The notes beneath the pieces are model-generated. The model worked only from the letters and a program-made list of their open reading frames with translations, ran no database searches and was not told where the DNA came from. A program made the translations under genes and the position numbers. 64,000 nt of DNA from Actinomycetaceae bacterium (GTDB taxonomy: Bacteria > Actinomycetota > Actinomycetes > Actinomycetales > Actinomycetaceae), in contig JAQYTG010000001.1 in NCBI GenBank assembly GCA_028724905.1, forward strand, positions 33,590 to 97,589. The letters run 5' to 3'. Positions 10,581-63,810 of this stretch are shown here, piece after piece. Position 1 is the first letter of the stretch. Each line of letters begins with the position of its first letter.

Positions 10581-11540
10581 TTATGATGCGGTGACGCCAG
10601 CGAGGCGGAATGCTTCACGCGCAGCTCCGAGAAGCGCTGCGTTGTTTCCCAGCTGTGCACGGCGCAGATCCAGAGACTGCTCAAGGTAGGCCGGCAATAG
10701 TTCGCGCAGTCGCGTTTCCATCGCTTCCCACCACGCACTGCCGACTCTGGAGACTCCACCCCCGAGCACAATCACCTCAGGATCGAGCATCATCACATAC
10801 CAGCTCACCACTTCGCCAAGGCGACGCCCTAAAGCTCGCGTGACGTCAAGCGCCACCGGATCTCCCTCAGCGGCGAGATCCATCACGAGCTGTCTGCGTA
10901 CCTCATCGGTTGCTGCAGGGCCATTGGCCTGGCGATAAAAATTCACCATTGCTGGCCCAGCAGAGTTTTGCTCGAATTTTGCCGGTAACTGTCCGTCTTC
11001 CACCCGCGGCTCATCGGCAAATGAAATTCTCGCCATCCCGATCTCTCCAGCCATGTGGTGTGCGCCCTCCAGCACGGTGCCATCGAGGCAAAACGCGCAA
11101 CCAATACCTGTGCCCACGGCCACCATGAGCATGGAACGTGCATCTTTGGCTGCACCTATCCAAGATTCACCGACGGCGTGGGCATTGGCATCATTAATCA
11201 CCTTTATCGGCACTGCCTGCGCCCACTCCAAGCGTTCACGCAATCCGTGAACAATATCGGTTCCCACCCAGTTGAGGATCGTCCCCGACGAATGCACCAC
11301 CACTCCGCGCTCGGCGTCAATTGCTCCGGCAGCACCAATCCCGATCCCAGCAGGCACGTCGCCTAGCAGGTCGTACGCACGCCCAATGAGCTGTGCAAGC
11401 GTGTCGAGAATGGCATCTCGGCCAATCTGAGATGGCGTGGGGGCTGTGATCTTCTCGCTCAGCTGCTGCCCAGATGAACTGATCAAGGCCGCAGCCATTT
11501 TTGTTCCGCCGATATCGACGGCAATCGCCGTTGCTACCAC
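10581..11540 (-). CDS. nanK: N-acetylmannosamine kinase, ROK family
   Basis: 319-residue ROK-family sugar kinase that phosphorylates ManNAc. It has the ATP-binding DIGGTK near the N-terminus, catalytic Asp in INDANAHAVGES, and the MAGEIGM segment. The Cys-rich zinc motif common in ROK proteins (CxCGxxGCxE) is absent; that region reads DEPRVEDGQLPAKFEQ. I chose the GTG at 11540 because AAAGGAG lies five bases upstream and the resulting protein begins VATAIAVDIGGTK. It lies between nanA and nanE, which fixes the likely substrate. Confidence 0.9.
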   Translation of the reverse strand: MVATAIAVDIGGTKMAAALISSSGQQLSEKITAPTPSQIGRDAILDTLAQLIGRAYDLLGDVPAGIGIGAAGAIDAERGVVVHSSGTILNWVGTDIVHGLRERLEWAQAVPIKVINDANAHAVGESWIGAAKDARSMLMVAVGTGIGCAFCLDGTVLEGAHHMAGEIGMARISFADEPRVEDGQLPAKFEQNSAGPAMVNFYRQANGPAATDEVRRQLVMDLAAEGDPVALDVTRALGRRLGEVVSWYVMMLDPEVIVLGGGVSRVGSAWWEAMETRLRELLPAYLEQSLDLRRAQLGNNAALLGAAREAFRLAGVTAS

Positions 11541-45800: not shown

Positions 45801-48800
45801 TGAGCTTTGAGAGCATTCAAGAACTGCCCCCACGCTTTGTTATAGTCGGCATCCCCCACGTTCACGCGCTTATCCACCAGCTGGCCAGTGCGAATGTCGA
45901 GATACGTGAGGCGATCCAACTGGCGGAAATTCACCATCGAGAAAAGGTGAATCGGCCCGTTGATTCCTGCCTCTTCGTGCGCCGTCACCAGCTTGTCAAA
46001 CACCGTGAAGTCGAAACTATAGTCTGTGCCGTCAAAACTCCATTCCACCGCTGGTTTGTAGTGAGAATTGGTCTGCGGATGGCCGTTTTCCAGCTTCCAC
46101 GGATCGTCGTTGATGACGATATTGATCACGTCTTGCTGGGCATCAGCTAGCTCACGTAAATATGGTTTCATGTGCTCGAAGTGCTCATCGCTCCACAAGT
46201 CATCGCCATACCAATCTGCAATGGCGTCTGGGTGCCACCACAAATCCAGAATAAATGGCCGCTTATCGTGAGCCAGCAACTGCACATCACGCACTGATGT
46301 GCGCACCGGATAGCTGCCGATCACCTCACCATCGAGCTTGAGAGTAATAATCTGCTCGATAATCCCCGTGGGCGCATCTGGGGCCACATGCGCCACAAAC
46401 CACACGCTTTGATTCTTCCCTGCCTCGATCTGCGGGGCGGCTGTGCGCAGCGGATCAATAGTGGAGCCGCCAGTTAAAGCGCCATTATTGCCGTTTTTAA
46501 TCTCACTGGGATAGCTAATCTCCCACGTGACGCCAGGAGCATCGCTCACCTCGGCGCTGAGCTGGCCAGGCATGGGCAAGTTCACCACCAGCTGAGCGGA
46601 AGTGCGGTTGTCTTTCGCCATCTCCAAGCCCAGATCATGCCCATCTGGGAGCAGCCAGCTATTGACCTGCTCAGTGGGCATACGCAGATAGCTAGAGCTC
46701 TGGAAATCACCAGTGGGCACATACACTTTCGCGCCCGCCGCGTCAGTTCCTGAGATTCCCGATAGGTCGGGGGAAGTGGTATCAAAATCCACCCGCAGCC
46801 GATTGCTCGTGTGCCGCACTTGCCCTGCGCTGGAGTTTGCACTCACGGTGAATGTAGGCTGCCACGAGCCACTATTCACTTCTTGTTGCGTAAACACGTG
46901 GCGCAGCAATGCACTAGATAGATTGCCCGCACACATTCGAGATTCACCCGCAGGAATCGCTCCACTCCACTTGCAAGCAGCGATATTGGTGAAAGAGGAA
47001 TTTGCCGATACTTGGGTGTTGGTTATCGGCACGTTGCCAGTGTTGGTGACGCGCGCCCACACCACTGCATTATCACCCACGGGAGAATATCCGCTATCTC
47101 CATTTTTGTCGTTATAAATAGCATCTAAATACGGCTCAATTTTCACCTGCGGATTCGCCCGAGCGCCACGGGCAGCAGTCACAGTAAGAAACAGATACTG
47201 CTGTGACGTCTTGCCATCGGCAGTGTAAGTGGCTTTCAGCATTCGATTACCAGCCACCGAAGTAGGGATCGTGATTGGCACTGCCACCCGCGAGCTAGCG
47301 CCTGCCTCAATCGCGGGCACCTGAGCAGTATCTACCTGCGTCCACACCCCATCGGTGCCGGTGATAGCAAGCGTGCCCGCAGGGATCTGGGCACCCGTCT
47401 GATTAGTGATGTCTACCCTATATTGCACCCGTGCTCCGGCGGTAAACGTGCCGCGATTGGCGGCGCTCGTCTCCTGTCCAGCGTTTTTCGCACTAATCGG
47501 AGCACACAGCGTATTCATCTTGGTGGTATCCACCGACGTGTAGGCAATCTCCACGTAGCCAGCGCGCTCATAGAGCACTCCCACCTTGCCGGTGGCCTGC
47601 CCACTAGCGTCAAAGATGGGCGTGCCCGTCACGTATTCTGCTTCATCAGGATCAATAGTGAGCCGGCCTGGCCACGTGGCTCCATTATCGCAAGAAATTT
47701 TCGCGCTCACATTGCGCCGAATATTAGGATCCTCGGAATTGAGCAGCATGAGCATCTTAGCTTTGGGATCATCTAAGGCAGCATCTGGATAGACGCGCAG
47801 GATCGTGCCATTTGAGGTGGGATCTATCTGCTGGCCGTCAAGTTGCCTGCCGCCCCAAGTGGCACCGCCGTCATCAGAAAACGCCACCATGCGCATTCCA
47901 CCCGCACCGCTCACGCGCCCGCTCATCATCAAGCGCCCATCGGAGAGCTCCACCGCTTTGTTTTCATCTGCGGCCACAGTGGAGGGAGTGCCAAATTGCC
48001 AATTCTCGCCATGATCATCAGAATACAAGCTCACCACTTTAGTGCCGCTGGCGTTCACCACGTATTGTTGCACAAGCCTGCCCTTATACTGCTCACTGCG
48101 CAGCTGGATTCCTTCGCCCGAGGCCGCGAAAATTCCGCCCCAGCTAGAATCTTTCGCTTCTTGAGTGATGTTTTTGTGACGCCAGGTGCTGCCATTATCG
48201 TCCGAATAGGAATACAGCACTTGCATCGTGCTTGGGTCGCCCTCGGTGTTGCTAGCACTCGCACCACTGAATCCAGCAGTGACGCTGCCCGCATAAAATA
48301 CGAAAATCCGCCCAGTCTCGCGGTCTACTAGCACTGAGGGATCACCATTGCCAGCTCTGCCAGCCTCATAGCGCACAGTTTGCACTGGCCCCCAGGTGTG
48401 GCCACCATCTTTGGAGCGGCGCATCACCACCCCGATATTCGCTGGCAGATCGTCCATATTGGGGCGCATATCATAGAAAGCCAGCAAATCGCCATTTGTC
48501 GCTTGCGTGAGCGCCGGGATCCGGTAGCGCGCTGCCTTGGTTATGCCGTCGTACCACTTGTTCAGTATCACTGTGGTACCCAGGGGATTTTCTTCAGCTC
48601 TGGCTGGAATCGCCCCCACTGGCGTAACTAGCCCCACCGCCACCACAGACAACACGCACGCACAACTCAGCGCTATTCTCATCAGCCTGCGCGTCAGTGG
48701 GTTTGTAGGCTTGTTTGTCAGCGCGTTTGTCGGCGGGTTTGCAAGTCTGTTCGTAAACTTGTTCGTCAGCCTGCGCGTCAGCGGATTCGTGAGTGTGTTC

Positions 48801-48859
48801 GTCAGCAAGTTCGTGCGTGAGTTCGTGAGCCCGTTGCCTTGCTTCATGTCAGATTTCAA
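42860..48859 (-). CDS. nanH: Wall-anchored sialidase fused to GH123/DUF4091-like glycosidase
   Basis: 1999-residue modular surface enzyme. Residues 11-59 are TN-rich tetrapeptide repeats, then a signal peptide (MRIALSC... to ARA, 60-88). GH33 sialidase follows (about 95-450): YRIP at 112-115 with the first catalytic Arg, and five Asp boxes (149, 219, 280, 328, 389). Two beta domains (about 465-690) precede a GH123-like region (about 700-1200) with an Asp-Glu pair in LMFDEQSE (1035-1036) and a DUF4091 end (GDEYVVYPG). A CBM32/F5-8C-like module lies at 1352-1505, Ig-like modules at about 1510-1880, a Pro/Glu-rich wall stretch, then LARSG (1965-1969), a membrane segment and KRGQRC. The start is TTG 48859 or ATG 48847. 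It releases Neu5Ac, and probably beta-GalNAc, from host glycans for the nan operon. Confidence 0.9.
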   Translation of the reverse strand: MKSDMKQGNGLTNSRTNLLTNTLTNPLTRRLTNKFTNRLANPPTNALTNKPTNPLTRRLMRIALSCACVLSVVAVGLVTPVGAIPARAEENPLGTTVILNKWYDGITKAARYRIPALTQATNGDLLAFYDMRPNMDDLPANIGVVMRRSKDGGHTWGPVQTVRYEAGRAGNGDPSVLVDRETGRIFVFYAGSVTAGFSGASASNTEGDPSTMQVLYSYSDDNGSTWRHKNITQEAKDSSWGGIFAASGEGIQLRSEQYKGRLVQQYVVNASGTKVVSLYSDDHGENWQFGTPSTVAADENKAVELSDGRLMMSGRVSGAGGMRMVAFSDDGGATWGGRQLDGQQIDPTSNGTILRVYPDAALDDPKAKMLMLLNSEDPNIRRNVSAKISCDNGATWPGRLTIDPDEAEYVTGTPIFDASGQATGKVGVLYERAGYVEIAYTSVDTTKMNTLCAPISAKNAGQETSAANRGTFTAGARVQYRVDITNQTGAQIPAGTLAITGTDGVWTQVDTAQVPAIEAGASSRVAVPITIPTSVAGNRMLKATYTADGKTSQQYLFLTVTAARGARANPQVKIEPYLDAIYNDKNGDSGYSPVGDNAVVWARVTNTGNVPITNTQVSANSSFTNIAACKWSGAIPAGESRMCAGNLSSALLRHVFTQQEVNSGSWQPTFTVSANSSAGQVRHTSNRLRVDFDTTSPDLSGISGTDAAGAKVYVPTGDFQSSSYLRMPTEQVNSWLLPDGHDLGLEMAKDNRTSAQLVVNLPMPGQLSAEVSDAPGVTWEISYPSEIKNGNNGALTGGSTIDPLRTAAPQIEAGKNQSVWFVAHVAPDAPTGIIEQIITLKLDGEVIGSYPVRTSVRDVQLLAHDKRPFILDLWWHPDAIADWYGDDLWSDEHFEHMKPYLRELADAQQDVINIVINDDPWKLENGHPQTNSHYKPAVEWSFDGTDYSFDFTVFDKLVTAHEEAGINGPIHLFSMVNFRQLDRLTYLDIRTGQLVDKRVNVGDADYNKAWGQFLNALKAHLDEKGWFDRTSLMFDEQSEAIMNRVHAILEEIAPQWQGKLAAAADAVNEVDLTPYSAISYQIINSVPDSLIRERREAGEQTLLYTWAQPLKPNLITPSPLMSARNLSWIVGKKDLDGFLRWTFNSWPEDVYSNPTFMYTQGDEYVVYPGGTKDSPEAGPVSAMRWEVFQDGIDDAEIIREAKRTIGVDMDEVNRVIAGVGDTNTDSAPHWGAMVGARSILLNMIGEQEDDDPTMTASAESTKVVPGSPVKITVKVKAPISADLDPLTVTPQLPPGWQITPAPGSTGPIRAGQTGVLEFWVANNYGSGDATIRFTADAGGDQLSAEVGLNAAVNACVRAGLDGHNYGANSEEPTQGLPNEGPVRLAFDGQTSTHWHSAWNGHAYPIEAWWKTDAVAGQEICSVQYQQRQSGTNGNASAANIYTSPDGVSWTKVASVNPRDTRDVQSFDLPAGTTGPWVKFSITAATSTVTGNNFGSAAEFAAMKRVGATPGITITDEVAADGTATRTYEIPDNSISYVVNGEAKAPGTYTAQPGEQISVAMNGLAEHGYVLPEGAVPDWEHTFLAPSVNGNDASVEPGSQLPAGMRLTLAGNGGAVTYALSAGAPDWLNLAEDGTLTGTVPEDAELGAITVPFTVTEVVSDDANLPAVPGTFSARGQILINVVDPAADAPAALDPSVGADEIPAEVGKASTSAAVGFVMEADGTSAQKPEGAVFALAPDAPAQAQIDPGTGVVTFTPSEDQYGQKVSVKVLVTYPQEYVESDPSDEFTLIFAVAARPVAPDAVIADVANVAASVGSAIADIALSVENGEITSVSGLPAGLQWAEGKISGTPTAAGTFTVTVSARNADGKVSTMTFNIVVEQRPVVDPENPGSSGDPEQPVDPVQPGDPEEPEQPEQPVDPETPGSSDDPEAPAPGEPSSGGSGAGTSILKPEKPAVAGNLDADPSLARSGSTTATLVGLAVLLMLVGAGFAASGKRGQRC
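48693..48836. repeat. 12-bp minisatellite in the sialidase 5' end
   Basis: About twelve degenerate units of GTCAGCGGGTTC type, in 12-bp register, encode the (L/P/F)-T-N-x tetrapeptides before the signal peptide. Copy-number change would keep the frame. Confidence 0.8.
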
Positions 48860-52028: not shown

Positions 52029-53116
52029 ATGAGAAAAGCCCGTCCGCGCACTCAAGCACGAACGAGCCAGAATCTTCATCTCAGATCTAAAGCTGCACGC
52101 TCACTTCCTCGCAACACGGAACACGAACCGGATCGTATCCTCATCCACGATATCGACCCGCAGACCTACCTGTCAGATTTACTGGTCACTACTTGCCCTG
52201 ACATGCTCGCAACGATGTTGCAAGCCTCCATTAACCAGTTGCTATCAGCTCAGGCTGACAGCCAATGCGGGGCTGATTATGCAACCGTGTCCACGGACAG
52301 GATCAACCAGCGTAACGGGTATCGCCACCGCCAACTCGATACACGCCTTGGCACACCGAATATCGAGATACCAAAACTACGCAAGGGCACATACTTCCCC
52401 TCTTGGCTCTTAAACAACGGCCCGTACTACTACCTAGCCTGCGATGCACTGACGATGAAGGTCCGCGAAGGCGGACGAGTGGTGAAAACCTCGGTCTTAT
52501 AAGCAACCGGCGTGAACAAAGAAGGCTACCGCGAACTACTAGGCATGCAGGTAGCCACCAGCGAGTCCGAAGCTTCCTGGACAGCATTCTTCGGCGATCT
52601 TCACACCCGCAGCCTTACACAGGCTTTCATGATCACCTCTGATGCTCATCTGGGTATCCAAGCCGCGATCGCTGCCGTGTTACCAACAGCGTCTTGGCAA
52701 CGATGCCGGACCCATTTCGCTAAGAACTTATCAGAGATGGTCTCGAAAACACAGTGGCCAGCCCTATCAGGGATCTTCCATGCAATCTTTCAACAGCCCG
52801 ATGCCAAAGCAACCTGGGACCAAGCCCGCGAGGCCATAACCCACTGCCATAACCGTTACCCCGACGTCGGTGATTATCTCGAACAAGCCCTCGATGACCT
52901 TCTAGCCTTTACCGCAGCCCCCAAAGCTGTTTGGACAAAGATCTGGTCAACAACCCCACCGAACGACTTAACCGCGAAATCCGTCGCCTCAGTGACGTCG
53001 TAGGTATATTCCCCGACCGCCAAGCAATCACCAGGCTCATCGGAGCCTTCCTATCCGAACAAAACGAGGAATGGAGCCAGCAAAAACGCTACATCTCACT
53101 GACCGTCCTCGAATAA
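52029..53116 (+). pseudogene. IS256-family (mutator) transposase, nonsense and frameshift
   Basis: Recognisable IS256-type transposase. The middle reads RNGYRHRQLDTRLG, then a stop at 52500-52502 interrupts the frame after GGRVVKTSVL; the same frame resumes with ATGVNKEGYRELLGMQVATS and SDAHLGIQAA, SWQRCRTHFAKN. Near 52950 one base is missing, and the end (NNPTERLNREIRRLSDVVGIFPDR) is in another frame. It is inactive. The likely right terminal repeat ends near 53215 (GGACTTGACC), about 25 bases before the CRISPR array. The left end is not clear. Confidence 0.85.
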
Positions 53117-53238: not shown

Positions 53239-54304
53239 GGCTCATCCCCGCCTGCGCGGGGAACACCAATAAACTCACCAAATATGAGCTTGTGGATGAG
53301 GCTCATCCCCGCCTGCGCGGGGAACACGGCTTAGATGGCGTTCTGTATCCACCTTGGCTGGGCTCATCCCCGCCTGCGCGGGGAACACGGCATGGTTGGG
53401 ATACGGTAGCCGCCCATCGGGGGCTCATCCCCGCCTGCGCGGGGAACACGCAGAGGTGTTCCTCTATGGCACACGCTCGCAAGGCTCATCCCCGCCTGCG
53501 CGGGGAACACGATGGCCTCGCAGGTGTCGCCACTATCAGCCACGGCTCATCCCCGCCTGCGCGGGGAACACTTTTTCTGCAGGGTGGTTGAGTGCGGTCA
53601 TGCGGGCTCATCCCCGCCTGCGCGGGGAACACTTGGTGACGCACTAGCACCGGTGATTACGATGCGGCTCATCCCCGCCTGCGCGGGGAACACTCGATTT
53701 AATGACCCCAACACGCTGGAAATAAGGCTCATCCCCGCCTGCGCGGGGAACACGCCGATCTGGGTTGCTCGGCGTGCTTTCATGTGGGCTCATCCCCGCC
53801 TGCGCGGGGAACACCGCTTGACTTTATTTCATCCTAGCTTTACTCTCGGCTCATCCCCGCCTGCGCGGGGAACACTGCGAGCCGGTCTGAATGGTCGTCC
53901 AGGCGGGAGGGCTCATCCCCGCCTGCGCGGGGAACACCGCTTGCTAATCCAGCGTGCGCTCAAATGCCCGGGCTCATCCCCGCCTGCGCGGGGAACACTC
54001 TGGCCAAATCAAACGCCTCCACGAAGAGCACGGCTCATCCCCGCCTGCGCGGGGAACACCAAGCCCGCCGCGCCGAGGCCAAGTAGAAGCCCGGCTCATC
54101 CCCGCCTGCGCGGGGAACACGCACCTCGTTAATGTTCTTGTTGAAGAATTTTGGGCTCATCCCCGCCTGCGCGGGGAACACAGTTAATCAGGTGTCGTGC
54201 GGTGGCTGCGTTCGGGCTCATCCCCGCCTGCGCGGGGAACACTTACGGTCTCGTGCTTCTTGGATCGCCCTGAACGGGCTCATCCCCGCCTGCGCGGGGA
54301 ACAC
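53239..54304 (-). CRISPR. Type I-E CRISPR array, 18 repeats and 17 spacers
   Basis: Repeat of 28 bases (on the plus strand GGCTCATCCCCGCC...GGGGAACAC), identical in all 18 copies. Period is 61; spacers are 33 nt except one of 32 (before the repeat at 53726) and two of 34 (before 53910 and 54277). In crRNA sense (minus strand) the repeat is GTGTT, a 6-bp stem CCCCGC/GCGGGG with loop GCAG, then ATGAGCC, the expected 5' handle after Cas6e cleavage. The leader lies on the cas2 side, so transcription runs right to left. The trailer end lies next to a dead IS256 element. Confidence 0.98.
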
Positions 54305-55762: not shown

Positions 55763-56431
55763 TTACACGCGGCCTCGTGCGAGTGTGAGCAAACCGCAGC
55801 CGTATCCCTTGGCACGGCCTATCCCGTTGACCAGGCCATAACGCAGTTTATTCGCGTCGACGATCTTCAAGCTTCCGGCAAAACGAGCAGTGACCAAGTG
55901 TATGTGGTACTGCGAATTCCCGTCGGATGCCCGCTTAACGAAGTTAAGAGTCTTGCTCTCTGTGACTTGAAAGCTGGGTTGCTCCGCCGAGCCGAAATCG
56001 ACGCCTAGCGATTCAGCCTTTCCAAACAACCATTTCGTCTGCTCTGGAATGCTGAGATGTGCCACAACCTTGCCACGCCTGCCCCGGCCCCGATTGATCG
56101 CCTTCGTCGGATTAGCTAAGAGCTCGAAGTTCCATTCTTGACCTTCGCCAATTCGATCGAGCAACCGATCGTAGTTGGCAGTTTCCTGCGGACGGGCTTC
56201 CCAGCCTGCTTCATCCACGATGCGCGCAGCGGTCGGTTTTTCCGGGCCAACGATATAAAGGGTGTGCTGATGTCCCCGCTGATCGAGACGCCACAGGATA
56301 CGTTCGTTCTTGACGACGACGTCGCTGGGGAAACTTGCTTGCACCGCAGCATGTAGTGCTTGTGGATTGGTCAGGTATTTTCGCCCTTGGCGGCGTGCCG
56401 GATTGAGTTGCACTCGAGTAAAGGTAGGCAT
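55763..56431 (-). CDS. cas6e: crRNA endonuclease Cas6e (CasE/Cse3)
   Basis: 222-residue Cas6e, which cuts pre-crRNA at the base of the repeat stem and stays bound to it. The probable catalytic His27 lies in NPQALHAAV, and the C-terminal Gly-rich loop IGRAKGYGCGLLTLAR is intact. Its start overlaps the cas5e stop by one base. It should also process the repeat-like hairpins of the RNA encoded between cas3 and cse1, which keep the same stem and handle. Confidence 0.95.
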   Translation of the reverse strand: MPTFTRVQLNPARRQGRKYLTNPQALHAAVQASFPSDVVVKNERILWRLDQRGHQHTLYIVGPEKPTAARIVDEAGWEARPQETANYDRLLDRIGEGQEWNFELLANPTKAINRGRGRRGKVVAHLSIPEQTKWLFGKAESLGVDFGSAEQPSFQVTESKTLNFVKRASDGNSQYHIHLVTARFAGSLKIVDANKLRYGLVNGIGRAKGYGCGLLTLARGRV

Positions 56432-58304: not shown

Positions 58305-58964
58305 TTAATTGGATTGTTTTTGGTCAGGTGTCGGTGTTGCGGAATAACTTCCACGGACAAAGTCTCTTCCCCAGCGAAGTTGGACGCCGGCTCGTTTCTT
58401 CGGATTTGCCAACGTGCGAAGATCCACTGCAAGCCGACCGTAATCGAAGCCAATATCCTGCGCTCGCATCAAGGTAATGAGCGAGCGGATGTGAACAAGG
58501 CGTGCACGCTCGCTTCCAGCGAGCAACATAGCATCGATACGTGGCTTGATTGAACCTGAAGATCCCTCTAGCTTTCGGTACAGATTGCCGCAAGCTTGCG
58601 CGAAACTCACACCATTCAGATGAACTTCCTGCGAGGCTGACTGCATGTGGATTGCGAATAGCGTCAACGCAATGTACGCCGCGTGCTCAGATGGTGACGG
58701 CTCGTCACCACGGCCTGCAAGCTTTTCACCAAATTCACCCTCCATCACGAAGAGTGCCTGGGCAAGAGCCAGTGGATTATTCGATATATCGAGACTGGCG
58801 TAACGACGCAACTGCGCAAGGTCAGCGCGAGCCTTGTGATGCTCCGGGGAGCTTGAGTCCGCAAGATACCCGCTCTGAAGCCTTTTGCATGTCACGTGAA
58901 CCGCGTATCTCAAATGGTTTTTCTCGGGCGCCACGTTAGCGCCGTCGCTAAGTACTTGCGTCAT
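58305..58964 (-). CDS. cse2: Cascade small subunit Cse2 (CasB)
   Basis: 219-residue all-helical Cse2, present as a dimer in Cascade. It shows the family segments ARADLAQLRRYASL and a C-terminal LAVDLRTLANPKKRAGVQLRWGRDF. Its start overlaps the cse1 stop by four bases (ATGA). Confidence 0.93.
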   Translation of the reverse strand: MTQVLSDGANVAPEKNHLRYAVHVTCKRLQSGYLADSSSPEHHKARADLAQLRRYASLDISNNPLALAQALFVMEGEFGEKLAGRGDEPSPSEHAAYIALTLFAIHMQSASQEVHLNGVSFAQACGNLYRKLEGSSGSIKPRIDAMLLAGSERARLVHIRSLITLMRAQDIGFDYGRLAVDLRTLANPKKRAGVQLRWGRDFVRGSYSATPTPDQKQSN

Positions 58965-60658
58965 GACGCATTCTCCTTCATATCGTCCTGATTAGCTTTT
59001 CCCTTATCGCTATGCGTTCGAGGGAGGGTCTTGTCCAGCGCCCACTGCAGGCGCTGGTAATAGTGGTAGGCGGAGACGACACGGCCTTTCGACTCCTCCG
59101 ATTGATCAAGAACTCGGCCAACAAAGGCTCGAGGTCCCGCACCACGCAGAGCAATCTTCGCCTGAACATCGATCGCGTCACGTACGACCTTCTGCCAATT
59201 GGTCACCCGCTCATCGAGCTCCTCGTTAGGCTCGCTCGCCTGCTCCGCGGTGAGCTCAGCTAGTTCCCGAAGCCAGGTATTGAATCGAGGTTCTAGCGCG
59301 GCAAGTACCCGATCCGTAGCCGCTACCCCGAATTGGTAGTCGCCACCGGCAGCCAATCCCAAGTTACCTACGAACTGCCCGAGTGCTACCGCGGCCTTCG
59401 TGGTAACGGCGGCAGCTTCGCGCACTTGAATTCTCAAGTCCTCTGACCCTTCCATCAACACAATCACCGGCATACTCATCTGGGCCGCGTAAGTCGTAGC
59501 AACCGATGACGCCTGGGGGCCATACTCGATGGAAACGAGCTCGAGATTCAACACAGGCGGAACGCCGTCCACCTCCTGCGCAAGTAATGCGAGGCTGTCG
59601 AAAATCTTCGGACGCTTCGGGGCCTTGTCCTTTCCGCTGTATCCGCCGTCCGTCTCAGCGACGACCAGTGCGTCAAAAGCTTTCCACATCGTCCGGTCGA
59701 CGTCGTATGGGCGCGGATAGTAAACGTCCTTACCCTTCTTGGATTTGTTCGCCGAGTATCTGTACGGTGTCATTGGGTCGCCAAAAACGTTCGCCCCGGC
59801 ATCTGGGATACCATCTCCGTTCGACACGACGACGCCGCACACCCGGCCGTCTTCAACATGCAGGCGCACCCGGCGTGATTGCCACGTCGCCAGATCTGCC
59901 GCACCTTGCGGGAAGGGGGGCTCCCCAACGGTTAATCGCTCATCTGGCCCATCGGGATGTCGCTCCCACACGGGCCGATCCTCGACGCTGAGAATTGCTT
60001 CTTTGGGGGTATTGAGAATGAGGGTGTCTAGGAGATTCTCACCGACGACGAGCGTTCCGCCTGTCATCCCAGACCAGCCCATTCCGATCGGGTAACCCTT
60101 ACCTCCCTTGACACGTGAATCCCCAACGGCCCCGGATTTAATTCCTGAATAGTCATACGCCTGTACGTACACGAGCCAACGGGCAGCTTCGGCCATGCTC
60201 AGCGAGTCACGTTCAACGCCTGCCCTCATAGAGAAGTAAGGATCTTGCGACTCTGGGACGATGGTCGACACGTGCTTGACCTCGCCCGAACTCACATGAA
60301 GATCCGCGACCTGCATGAAAGGACGCTCGGCATCCACAAGGTCGAAGCGATCCTCATAATTCTTCAGGTAGCTAAGAACCGCTTCGTCCCTACCGGAATT
60401 TTGAAGATGCTCGCGTAGACCCTCGAACCACTCGGCGTGGTTGAATGCTTCGCCCGGATCTACCTCGGTGTCGGGATGATGCGCCCGCCAGAAGATCGCA
60501 AGCAGTAAGCGCGTCACCGCGTAGTTCTGGGCGGGAGAGTCGCCTTGAATAAAAGAAATCTCATTTGAGCCGTCGAACACGTCGCGGATACCAACCATAA
60601 CTTGGTTCCCCTCGGCGTCGACGGCCTTAATCCAAGGTTCGTCGAGTAGTGAAAACAT
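58961..60658 (-). CDS. cse1: Cascade large subunit Cas8e (Cse1/CasA)
   Basis: 565-residue Cas8e that recognises the PAM and recruits Cas3. It begins FSLLDEPWIKAVDAEG, typical for the family, and has the central segment WSGMTGGTLVVGENLLDTLI and a helical C-terminal bundle. A strong AAAGGAGG lies just before the ATG. Its promoter (TATAAT at 60719-60724) is separate from cas3 and overlaps a site matching the seed of the crRNA-like RNA encoded on the opposite strand, so Cascade probably represses its own synthesis. Confidence 0.96.
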   Translation of the reverse strand: MFSLLDEPWIKAVDAEGNQVMVGIRDVFDGSNEISFIQGDSPAQNYAVTRLLLAIFWRAHHPDTEVDPGEAFNHAEWFEGLREHLQNSGRDEAVLSYLKNYEDRFDLVDAERPFMQVADLHVSSGEVKHVSTIVPESQDPYFSMRAGVERDSLSMAEAARWLVYVQAYDYSGIKSGAVGDSRVKGGKGYPIGMGWSGMTGGTLVVGENLLDTLILNTPKEAILSVEDRPVWERHPDGPDERLTVGEPPFPQGAADLATWQSRRVRLHVEDGRVCGVVVSNGDGIPDAGANVFGDPMTPYRYSANKSKKGKDVYYPRPYDVDRTMWKAFDALVVAETDGGYSGKDKAPKRPKIFDSLALLAQEVDGVPPVLNLELVSIEYGPQASSVATTYAAQMSMPVIVLMEGSEDLRIQVREAAAVTTKAAVALGQFVGNLGLAAGGDYQFGVAATDRVLAALEPRFNTWLRELAELTAEQASEPNEELDERVTNWQKVVRDAIDVQAKIALRGAGPRAFVGRVLDQSEESKGRVVSAYHYYQRLQWALDKTLPRTHSDKGKANQDDMKENAS

Positions 60659-60684
60659 CAGACCTCCTTTCAGTTACAGAGATG

Positions 60685-60717
60685 GTTTCTGTTTACAACG
60701 ATATTAGCATTTATTTA
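60685..60717 (+). promoter_or_regulatory. Protospacer-like Cascade target in the cse1 promoter
   Basis: GTTTCTGT at 60685-60692 equals the first eight spacer positions of the crRNA-like RNA. It is preceded by ATG (60682-60684), a functional type I-E PAM in E. coli. Beyond position 8 the match is poor, as expected for binding without Cas3 cleavage. The 33-nt footprint reaches the cse1 -10 box. Confidence 0.75.
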
Positions 60718-60718
60718 A

Positions 60719-60724
60719 ATTATA
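60719..60724 (-). promoter_or_regulatory. -10 box of the cse1 operon
   Basis: Consensus TATAAT on the minus strand, about 60 bases upstream of the cse1 ATG. The -35 region is weak and overlaps a palindrome. Confidence 0.6.
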
Positions 60725-60745
60725 GAAAGTTGATTTTAATCTTTC

Positions 60746-60759
60746 TGTTCTCGAGAACA
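60746..60759. promoter_or_regulatory. 14-bp perfect palindrome between divergent promoters
   Basis: TGTTCTCGAGAACA lies at the -35 region of the cse1 promoter and upstream of the promoter for the crRNA-like RNA. Related half-sites TTCTCG/CGAGAA occur upstream of cas3 at 63888-63902. Confidence 0.5.
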
Positions 60760-60777
60760 CTCTTGCATCCCTCCGCC

Positions 60778-60805
60778 TTCGACTTAAGCCAGCGAAAGCT
60801 ATATA
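60778..60805 (+). promoter_or_regulatory. Promoter of the crRNA-like RNA
   Basis: -35 TTCGAC (60778-60783), 16-bp spacer and -10 TATATA (60800-60805) on the plus strand would start transcription near 60812, just before the first repeat-like hairpin. Confidence 0.55.
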
Positions 60806-60811
60806 GTTGAT

Positions 60812-60907
60812 CCCGTTAATTCCCTGCTCTTGCAGGGATGAGCCGTTTCTGTAATTCAAATACAATTTGATTGGCTCCACCTCCCCGCGTGGCGGGGCTT
60901 TCCTTTC
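60812..60907 (+). ncRNA. crRNA-like regulatory RNA (CreR/CreA-type), repeat-spacer-repeat
   Basis: Repeat-like hairpin 1 (60815-60844) has stem CCCTGC/GCAGGG, a 4-nt loop and the exact handle ATGAGCC. Against the array stem CCCCGC/GCGGGG one C-G pair is changed to T-A on both sides, a compensatory change. A spacer-like stretch follows at 60845-60877, exactly 33 nt. Repeat-like hairpin 2 has the array stem CCCCGC/GCGGGG at 60883-60888 and 60892-60897, and a T-rich end that may also terminate transcription. It is encoded opposite to cas3 and cse1, between them. Processing by Cas6e and loading into Cascade is inferred. Confidence 0.8.
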
Positions 60908-60954
60908 TATGCACGCCATGCATGGCATCTTGCCCTTCAACTCGGCGTGTCATG

Positions 60955-63810
60955 TCATGATTCCTCGTCCGTTGTGCGTTCAGCGGACGAGGCCGCTTCT
61001 TTATCAGTCACAACTAGACCCACTTCCTTGTCGTAACTCAGGTCAAACCTTCCCACGTGCGCCTGACCAGACCGATCAAAGCGAAGAGCTACCTGGCCAC
61101 GAAGCAAAGCTGAGATAGACCATTCCACCGGCGTCTGCGCTTCAAGCTCACTCATGACCGCATTGAAATCCCCCTCCCATTTCGTCATTCGGACTGGGAG
61201 CCTGAGCGAACTGCCAGCAAGTTTGATTGCCTGCTGATAGGTAGGTTCGACGCCTTTGAGGACTTCGGACCCGTCGTCATCGTTTCCGAATGCGCGGTAA
61301 CCATAAGCCGTGTCCTGCACGGCAATTACCTCCACGCTGAACTCTGTATCGCGCACCTGAGCAGAACCGGCCTCTTCACCGCCCAAACCGCGGGAATCAT
61401 CGTGGGTGATGTTGAATAGATCGTGTAGCTCCGACGCTCCGGCCAAACAGGGGAAAAGAAATGTTTTGGCTCTCCCTACCGATAGACCCCTTTTCTTCGC
61501 ATCCTCGTTCACAGCCACGTCCCACCGCTCCTGCCAGCCCTCGGGTAGGTGCGGCTGGGCATCATAAACTCTGCGTACCAGCTCTGGGACGTCCGACGGC
61601 CGCCGAATCGCTTCCGGTAAATGAGCCATAGTTGAAAGGAGTATCGCTTCCCCGTAGATAAACTGGGTTCCCGAATCAAACCTCGGCACAGTATCGTCGT
61701 CGTAAACCCCACGAACAAAAACCATCGGTTCCCGGAGTTTCACGGGACGATCACCCAGGGGGCGTTCGTGGCGATGAATACGGCCAGCACGCTGAATAAT
61801 CAGATCTATCGGAGCAATATCAGTAATCAGCACATCAGCATCGATGTCCAGACTCTGTTCCGCCACCTGAGTGGCCACGATAATCTGCCGCCACGGCCGG
61901 CCCGCTCCCCGCCGGGCACGCGGACCAAGCCGCTCCCGCAATGCATCTTCCTTCGCGCTGCGATCAGACGCAATAAAAGCGGCGTGGTGCAATTCAACCT
62001 CGCCCGGAAAAACAGCAGAGAGTTCTCGATACGCCTCTTGCGCTCGCCGAATTGTGTTGCAGATGACGAGCGCGACCCCGCCGTCGTCGAGAAGCTCGCC
62101 GAGCGTTTGGCGAAGCACGCCTAGGTCATCACCAATCCGATGGACGGCGATCTGTGCGTCGTCCGGCCGCGGTGGGGTCGGGATTGCCCGTACCCCATTG
62201 GCATCAACCACGCTCACGAGTGGGTATGAACTGACGTCCAGCACCTGCGAAGCAGCTTGCGATTCACTCATGACAGCTGAGCCATAAGCTGCCGCCAGCT
62301 TTTTCCGCTGGGCTGGTGGAAGGGTCGCGGACATCAGAATCACGCTCATGCCATAGCGAGCGCACCACTGCAACACCCGGTATAGGTATTGGGACATGTA
62401 GGCGTCATAAGCATGGACTTCATCTATGAGAATCACTTTGCCAGCCAACGCCACGTGCCGAAGCATGGAGAAGCGCACCTTGAGAGCCATCATCAGTACT
62501 TGATCGACTGTGCCCACCACGAAATCAGAAAGCAACCCTTTGCGAGAACCCGATAGCCACTGGTTTGCGACGAGCCCGCCCATGTTTTCTTCGCTATCAG
62601 AGCCCCGCGTTAACGACGCCGCATTTTCTTTCGTTGTGCCGAACCGTAGCCGCTGGAATTGCTCAGAAAGCCGATTCTTAGAATGCGCAAGATACATGGA
62701 CGCCACACTGCCGCCGCGCGAGGAATGCCTCGCCCAGTCCACAACACGCTCAAACAGCCCATTCGCGGTGGCCATGGTTGGAGCCGCAACGTATACGCCC
62801 TGAGCACCCGAATTCTGCCCGAGGACGTGAGCCGCAGCCAGACCGGCCTCAGTTTTGCCTTCACCCGTTGGAGCTTCAATGATCATCAACATTGGGCCCT
62901 TGGCTGATTGAGCAGTCTCAACAGCAACGGCCTGAATCGGACGCACCTGTACCGAATCATCCCAAGCAAATGTGCGATTGAAAAGCTCTTGCACGCTGGC
63001 AGGAGGATCAACTGGTGTCCAGGGCAATGGGAGATTAATGGCCTCCATACCCGCCGCTACTCGCTCAGACTGCGGTGCGATCGCTCCGTAAGGGAACGCA
63101 TTCTCATTCGATGCTATCCAATCTGCCATGATTAGAAGTCCCACCATAAGCTGAGGGGCACCCGCTACTGGTTTCTTCTTCAGTTTGCCAAGAACTCCAC
63201 TGATCCCGGTAAGACCCGTCATTGACTCGATAAGCTCCGCGGCGACGTCGTCGAAACGGCACTCGCGCCCCTCAAGTTCTTTAATTTTTCTCTCGAGCAA
63301 AACCGGGTCTGACGTGAACCCATGATGAGCATCCACAACCGAGATCAGTGAGGAAACAATCGGCTTCTTTAGTCCGTTGGCTAGTAGCCAACGCCTCAGG
63401 AATACCGCAGAAGCTAACCCGTGGGGAAACTTGATATCCGGTCCCTCTCCTCGTGGCCAATCAAGTGAAAGCCCGGCCTCTTCAATCGAGCGAAGTAGAT
63501 AATACGAATCTGGACGCCGCTCAACTATGCGTTGAAAGGAGACAGACGCCTTACCGACGTCGTGAACCCCGGCAAAGAAAATATAAAGCTGCCGCACATC
63601 CTGTTCGTCGAGTTTCCAGATCGCAACCAGGGTCCGCTTCAACGAATCTGAGACCCAGTTGTCCCACAGCCACTCCGCCACGCAAGCTGTATCGATGAGG
63701 TGTTGCGGAAGCGGAAGATAGGCATCCTCGCATCCGGACTTTGCCCACAGGGAATGAGCTTGTGGGCTTAGGCTGTTGAGCCAGGTTTCTGCGCGATTTG
63801 CGATGTCCAT
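60955..63810 (-). CDS. cas3: CRISPR-associated nuclease-helicase Cas3
   Basis: 951-residue Cas3 with an N-terminal HD nuclease domain (His37, HD pair His83-Asp84 in AGVHDVGKAS, later DAHHG) and an SF2 helicase (Walker A APTGEGKT at 313-320, DEVH at 463-466, MSATLPP, QRAGRIHRH). It degrades DNA at Cascade-bound targets. GGAGG lies seven bases before the ATG. It is transcribed ahead of, and apparently separately from, cse1-cas2, with the crRNA-like RNA in the 296-base gap after it. All key residues are present. Confidence 0.96.
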   Translation of the reverse strand: MDIANRAETWLNSLSPQAHSLWAKSGCEDAYLPLPQHLIDTACVAEWLWDNWVSDSLKRTLVAIWKLDEQDVRQLYIFFAGVHDVGKASVSFQRIVERRPDSYYLLRSIEEAGLSLDWPRGEGPDIKFPHGLASAVFLRRWLLANGLKKPIVSSLISVVDAHHGFTSDPVLLERKIKELEGRECRFDDVAAELIESMTGLTGISGVLGKLKKKPVAGAPQLMVGLLIMADWIASNENAFPYGAIAPQSERVAAGMEAINLPLPWTPVDPPASVQELFNRTFAWDDSVQVRPIQAVAVETAQSAKGPMLMIIEAPTGEGKTEAGLAAAHVLGQNSGAQGVYVAAPTMATANGLFERVVDWARHSSRGGSVASMYLAHSKNRLSEQFQRLRFGTTKENAASLTRGSDSEENMGGLVANQWLSGSRKGLLSDFVVGTVDQVLMMALKVRFSMLRHVALAGKVILIDEVHAYDAYMSQYLYRVLQWCARYGMSVILMSATLPPAQRKKLAAAYGSAVMSESQAASQVLDVSSYPLVSVVDANGVRAIPTPPRPDDAQIAVHRIGDDLGVLRQTLGELLDDGGVALVICNTIRRAQEAYRELSAVFPGEVELHHAAFIASDRSAKEDALRERLGPRARRGAGRPWRQIIVATQVAEQSLDIDADVLITDIAPIDLIIQRAGRIHRHERPLGDRPVKLREPMVFVRGVYDDDTVPRFDSGTQFIYGEAILLSTMAHLPEAIRRPSDVPELVRRVYDAQPHLPEGWQERWDVAVNEDAKKRGLSVGRAKTFLFPCLAGASELHDLFNITHDDSRGLGGEEAGSAQVRDTEFSVEVIAVQDTAYGYRAFGNDDDGSEVLKGVEPTYQQAIKLAGSSLRLPVRMTKWEGDFNAVMSELEAQTPVEWSISALLRGQVALRFDRSGQAHVGRFDLSYDKEVGLVVTDKEAASSAERTTDEES

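Follow-up and report, generated by a model that had tools for sequence, protein, structure and literature searches.

The findings in this study suggested that a type I-E cas locus from an Actinomycetaceae bacterium holds, between its cas3 and cse1 genes, a minimal CRISPR that very probably encodes a CreR-type RNA, one that would steer Cascade to bind the cse1 promoter without cutting it and so repress the Cascade operon. CreR was reportedly described by Liu et al. in 2023 (Cell Host Microbe), and the regulator in the window, by which we mean the whole 64,000-nt stretch of DNA that was analysed, is best read as a further case of this kind already reported in that year. CreR was favored over CreA because the target is the promoter region of cse1, the first gene of the Cascade operon, and not a toxin gene; the reading of the earlier note, which had named CreA/CreR without choosing between them and without a target, is supported and is extended by the target found. 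If this is correct, the locus contains a self-contained, testable feedback circuit, in which the immune complex would meter its own synthesis via a dedicated guide.

The cas locus lay at the end of the window on the - strand, with cas3, cse1, cse2, cas7, cas5, cas6e, cas1 and cas2 assigned by Pfam. The gap between cas3 and cse1 was 296 nt, and the mini-CRISPR unit was located inside of it on the + strand. At 60817-60905, outside the array, a repeat-like hairpin, a 33-nt spacer-like stretch, and a second repeat-like hairpin followed one another opposite cas3 and cse1, just as had been claimed from the sequence at the outset. Coordinates of all features are given in Table 1.

Table 1. Position and description of the mini-CRISPR unit, its target, and neighboring features in the window.
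Feature	Position	Strand	Description
cas3	60955..63810	-	Cas3 HD, helicase and C-terminal domains; upstream neighbor of the unit
Predicted promoter of unit	60779..60807	+	TCGACT-17-TATAGT; TATATA at 60800-60805; promoter scan
psiR1, degenerate repeat	60817..60844	+	TAATTCCCTGCTCTTGCAGGGATGAGCC; 20/28 identical to array repeat; stem CCCTGC 60822-60827, loop TCTT, stem GCAGGG 60832-60837, handle ATGAGCC 60838-60844
Guide	60845..60877	+	GTTTCTGTAATTCAAATACAATTTGATTGGCTC; 33 nt, length as in array
psiR2	60878..60905	+	Flank CACCT, stem CCCCGC 60883-60888, loop GTG, stem GCGGGG 60892-60897
Target site	60697..60729	-	Starts 71 nt upstream of cse1 ATG; AA PAM 60731-60730; TATAAT 60724-60719
cse1	58961..60658	-	PF09481, E 1.1e-103; first gene of Cascade operon, promoter region targeted
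cas6e	55763..56431	-	PF08798, E 6.3e-57; predicted processing enzyme
CRISPR array	53239..54304	-	18 identical 28-nt repeats GTGTTCCCCGCGCAGGCGGGGATGAGCC, spacing 61 nt nearly throughout

The unit was not an ordinary CRISPR array. psiR1 was the top + strand match to the array repeat in the window (runner-up, 18/28) and differed from it at 8 of 28 positions, with one stem pair changed on both sides (CCCTGC/GCAGGG versus CCCCGC/GCGGGG in the array), while psiR2 had no handle. The first hairpin bore out all that had been said of it (a 6-bp stem with one compensated pair, a loop of 4 nt, an exact ATGAGCC), and the guide was of the array spacer length, as claimed. For the second hairpin, the exact retention of the array stem was confirmed, but the loop was 3 nt instead of the 4 nt of the array, and CTTTCC followed the stem in place of a handle; none was needed, since no spacer follows in the unit. 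A terminator-like hairpin with a T-rich tail (60883-60897, + strand) coincided with psiR2, and both this T-rich end and the promoter-like TATATA upstream were visible in the + strand, in agreement with the initial description. The promoter scan of 60600-61000 returned 2 sites, compared with 0.3 in shuffles, and the TATATA of the unit was aligned in Actinobaculum suis and in L043. Folding of 60812-60905 was stronger than in all 200 shuffles (z -3.34). A comparison of 60600-61100 with Rfam produced no hit up to E = 1. The sequence supported the description of a degenerate mini-CRISPR with the potential for a Cas6e-processed guide.

The guide matched a single site in the promoter region of cse1. 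When its first 16 bases were compared with both strands of the window, the best non-self site was at 60729 on the - strand (13/16, AA before it), and the next reached 12/16. Guide positions 1-17 corresponded to 60728-60712 (-), with a match of 15/15 at positions 1-5, 7-11, and 13-17 beside a PAM of AAC (guide G TTTCT G TAATT C AAATA C A, target C TTTCT A TAATT T AAATA A A). Mismatches within positions 1-19 were confined to 6, 12, and 18; over 20-32, 4 of 13 positions matched. The scheme of leaving out each sixth base comes from the literature and was applied after the 13/16 site had been seen; under this scheme, the next best site in the window reached 11/15, and with AA required, 15/15 was reached in 1 of 20,000 guide shuffles and in 0 of 20,000 promoter shuffles. 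The pattern AANTTTCTNTAATTNAAA, with at most 1 mismatch allowed, occurred once in the 2.06-Mb source genome, which is rated 93% complete. Seed (positions 1-5 and 7-11) and PAM together thus matched the promoter region of the locus's own cas genes. The label "promoter" was given to the targeted stretch because of its TATAAT and its position upstream of cse1; the promoter scan found no - strand sigma-70 site for cse1, and the TATAAT lacked a good -35, so that the stretch is the putative cse1 promoter. The AA PAM was deduced from guide-target pairs, not from protospacers. Two other sites were considered as targets and set aside, one at 60685 on the + strand (8 nt) and one at 60683 on the - strand (12 of the first 16), as neither had AA before it and the 60729 site scored higher in the same scan.

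The first of these sites also bears on whether the RNA could act as an antisense or other base-pairing small RNA on the cse1 mRNA and not via Cascade. The 8-nt identity at 60685-60692 (+) would allow pairing with the cse1 leader. However, this site has no AA before it, the 8-nt run is the maximum within 12/33 overall, and A. suis has another base at its last position, while the strong target is cse1-strand sense and would be unable to pair with cse1 mRNA. The relatives described below further argued against it, as AA and the low matches at positions 6 and 12 recurred while target strand and unit orientation varied. We consider an antisense RNA extremely improbable, and return to a Cascade-borne guide.

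Guide-target pairs were also sought in relatives. Cse1 was present in 74 of 213 genomes of the family, and the family/order set comprised 79 loci, of which 4 came from the order and 75 from the family, counting the window and A. suis, with Cse1 in 79/79 (one partial). In a class-wide search, Cse1 was found in 73 of 394 genomes, with 86 places listed; the further set comprised 60 of these 86 (the first 61 minus G000 and G037, plus G584). The stretch upstream of cas3 and the gap separating cas3 from cse1 were scanned for a handle and stem together with an AA site that agreed with guide positions 1-5 and 7-11. In masked counts, candidates overlapping array-like repeats were dropped, which removed L069 and L115 from the family set and L131 and L179 from the further set; L071 and L152 were kept despite having no proper second hairpin. 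Generic handles alone served for 12 further loci out of 60, as their own handle could not be read (no I-E-like repeat in 8, a cut one in 4), and likewise for several family loci.

With masking, 28 of the 79 family/order loci had an AA pair at 9/10 or better, 17 of them exact, compared with 0-5 loci for each of the other 15 dinucleotides (at most 1 exact). Guides swapped onto other loci yielded 20 pairs at 9/10 or better and 1 exact pair per 1580 locus trials. The masked further set gave 13/60 loci with AA (10 exact; swaps, 17 and 1 per 1200), 7 with CC (5 exact), and at most 4 for other dinucleotides (at most 2 exact). From swapped guides, approximately 1 locus per masked set was expected, versus 28/79 and 13/60 observed. 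Before masking, AA gave 30/79 family/order loci at 9/10 or better and 19 at 10/10 (200 permutations: mean of 0.95 loci, maximum 4, and 0.08, maximum 1, respectively), and with 15/60 further loci, 10 exact (swaps, 19 and 1 per 1200). Without masking, dinucleotides that occur in arrays scored as well. Of the 225 family-set candidates, 10 with CC reached 9/10 or better (4 exact); among 458 in the further set, there were 54 with CC (45 exact), 13 with TC (6), 13 with GG (1), and 15 with AA (10). All eight CC examples inspected were repeat-to-repeat matches. No pair at 9/10 or better was found in 51/79 family/order loci, L046 with its 61-63% identical Cse1 being one of these, or in 47/60 further loci (masked). 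For the 51 pairless loci, a unit may lie elsewhere, be absent, or fall short of the threshold, as happened to L045 and A. suis in a stricter scan.

Among the closest relatives, both hairpins were kept and the guide changed together with its target. In the five closest unit-bearing loci (the window and A. suis, with L043, L044, and L045), every guide matched its own target at 10/10, versus 4-7/10 for cross-matches among the five, except for the near-identical window/A. suis pair. Targets in relatives lay upstream of cse1 or cas3, the places searched, and target strand and unit orientation varied. The check that had been proposed for relatives was therefore passed in part: kept hairpins with a changing guide were found in the closest relatives, but a conserved 33-nt spacing was not, as the distance was 32 nt in A. 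suis and L043 and ca. 21 nt in many others.

Two further loci are described here in their own right. In L107 (G114, ~10976-11073), cse1 was without its first ~439 codons and only the second hairpin remained, beside cas3; the regulator and a Cascade subunit seem to have been lost in one deletion. Upstream of cas3 in L057 (~3970 and ~3948), one guide matched two AA sites 22 nt apart, at 10/10 and 9/10, a possible double operator.

The pairing pattern in relatives followed the geometry of the Cascade R-loop. Across 24 non-redundant pairs of the family, matches at positions 6, 12, and 18 numbered 8, 6, and 3 (ca. 6 expected by chance), while those at positions 13, 14, and 15 numbered 19, 16, and 15; none of these positions had played a part in selecting the pairs. 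Left out of the 24 were L066 (an array artefact), the redundant L085, L095, L097, L099, and L120 (the last with L042), and loci whose best handle scored below 6/7. Positions 6, 12, and 18 are the bases flipped out in Cascade (as described in the portion of PMC5904413 used here). Because pairing skipped each sixth base, the signature indicated Cascade on DNA, not antisense RNA. The many guide-promoter pairs of relatives would trace, on sequence evidence alone, an R-loop geometry in blocks of five with few matches at 6 and 12.

Another explanation is that the unit is a decaying, functionless repeat-spacer-repeat left over from an old array. The divergence of psiR1 from the repeat (8/28), the lost handle of psiR2, and the condition of the A. 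suis unit, which had a C.A mismatch in both stems and ATGAGCT as its handle, would fit such decay. The gap as a whole was also no more conserved than four-fold sites of cse1, with 8% versus 10% divergence to A. suis and 30% versus 27% to L043; since it diverges about as fast as those sites, gap conservation alone was no argument for function. A fossil, however, would not retain a 15/15 match to the adjoining promoter, nor would it show guides in relatives changing together with their targets. In handle sites chosen with no stem filter, moreover, the stem went with the guide-target match, a perfect 6-bp stem being present in 12/19 sites with an exact target versus 35/688 others. A remnant without function is on these grounds quite unlikely.

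The unit could also be a CreA-type antitoxin, in which the unit RNA would guide Cascade to repress CreT, a small toxin gene, and losing Cascade would be harmful as a result. Its architecture and seed rule are as in CreA (PMC8501985, in the portion used here), and the stretch from the target to cse1 holds a five-codon frame, ATG CTA ATA TCG TTG TAA. That frame was absent in L043 and had a GTG start in A. suis, however, and no ribosome-binding site was visible for it; cse1 itself begins 71 nt after the targeted region, and the search in relatives, confined to the regions upstream of cse1 and of cas3, found the targets there. In the alignment of relatives, in which RNA toxins would be undetectable from sequence, no conserved small frame was found between target and cse1, and the frame was dropped as a CreT toxin candidate on this basis. 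An antitoxin role is very improbable, and a CreR-type regulator of Cascade remained the preferred reading.

The distance from handle to second hairpin in relatives fell into two classes. With masking, 19 family and 5 further units had a distance of 26-27 nt, and 8 family and 7 further units one of 37-39 nt. The two classes held 39/41 units (43/45 unmasked), fewer of them independent cases because of shared ancestry, and none lay at 28-36 nt. The units outside both classes (L071 at 58 and L152 at 18) had no proper second hairpin. After subtracting the 5-nt flank, guides were 21-22 or 32-34 nt; for example, lengths were 33 nt in the window and 32 nt in A. suis and L043 versus 21 nt in L044 and L045, and the close relatives L099 and L100 differed by a 12-nt piece. 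The 12-nt step between classes equals two Cas7 subunits. In type I-F1 Cascade, spacer length grows by 6 nt with each Cas7 and interference stays off when R-loops are shortened, type I-E being less restricted (PMC7296934, in the portion used here). In the type I-B system of H. hispanica, spacers of 21-24 nt repress strongly and 20 nt much less, and interference and priming are gone at 24 nt or less (PMC10989794, likewise). In E. coli, mismatches over positions 19-32 gave strong Cascade binding, with no interference or priming detected in the data reported there (PMC5904413, in part).

We put forward, as a proposal whose chances of being right and wrong are in our view evenly balanced, that type I-E regulatory guides are quantised at approximately 33 and 21 nt, with no intermediate sizes, and represent two natural routes to binding without ever cutting, either by mismatch of a full-length guide after positions 17-19, the case of the window, or by a guide exactly two Cas7 steps shorter, which forms a four-Cas7 mini-Cascade for repression; carrying the I-F1 and I-B spacer-length behavior over to I-E is part of what this assumes. 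If true, it would amount to a natural mini-Cascade for repression, and would bear on the evolution of self-targeting without self-cutting as well as on how type I CRISPR interference is designed. A limited literature search, with the original CreR paper outside its scope, returned no title on two natural guide lengths or on CreR in Actinomycetaceae.

For the window, we infer transcription, processing, loading, repression, and feedback of the unit RNA as follows. Transcription would proceed from the unit's own predicted promoter and start at ~60812, just before psiR1, as the promoter-like site ends at 60807. Cas6e would then cut after the psiR1 and psiR2 stems, yielding an RNA of ca. 60 nt with the 5' handle AUGAGCC. 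Cascade loaded with this RNA would base-pair to the template strand of the cse1 promoter region through guide positions 1-5, 7-11, and 13-17, and the R-loop would stay too short for Cas3 cutting, since the guide match ends near position 19. Repression would be lifted when Cascade is drawn off the promoter by ordinary crRNAs or is lost to an anti-CRISPR.

Several observations concern the origin and surroundings of the locus. A. suis DSM 20639 was the sole relative from the named-genome scan, with Cse1 ~91-92% identical. Cse1 identity was 38% and 30% to the same-genus species G003 and G004, versus 92% to A. suis, 91% to G221, and 73% to G220, all of other genera; as Cse1 is far closer to other genera than to its own, the cas locus, including the regulator, looks to have moved horizontally. 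Beside the array, at 52029-53003, two adjacent open frames matched different parts of the Mutator-family transposase PF00872 and are seemingly a broken insertion element. Short degenerate direct repeats (family D3), rich in CGTCAG/TTCGT motifs, were present at 48679-48835. The base after ATGAGCC was A in 0/18 array repeats of the window and in 1/22 repeats of L001, a pattern suggestive of the third PAM base being carried along into the array.

CreRs are crRNA-like RNAs that regulate cas genes in type I and V-A systems (PMC12737573 and PMC12948488, in the portions used here). The window unit resembles these in being a crRNA-like unit at a cas locus, with no toxin apparent from the sequence and a guide matching the cas operon promoter region beside a PAM, and differs in lying within the gap from cas3 to cse1, on the strand opposite to both, and in a match that extends to position 17 in blocks of five. 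CreA acts through positions 1-5 and 7-11 (PMC8501985); like the CreA of CreTA, as far as the portions of PMC8501985 and PMC9458426 used here describe it, the unit has two degenerate repeats, a psiR1 stem more diverged than that of psiR2, a PAM, a seed at 1-5 and 7-11, and tolerance at 6 and 12. In contrast, CreA silences a toxin RNA, its target being the promoter of a linked toxin RNA gene, whereas the stretch targeted here leads into cse1 and no toxin was found. Engineered short-spacer type I repression (PMC10989794 and PMC7296934, as given in part) also combines short guides or R-loops with a lack of cutting; those cases are of other subtypes, while the short guides of the relatives are natural and the guide of the window is full length.
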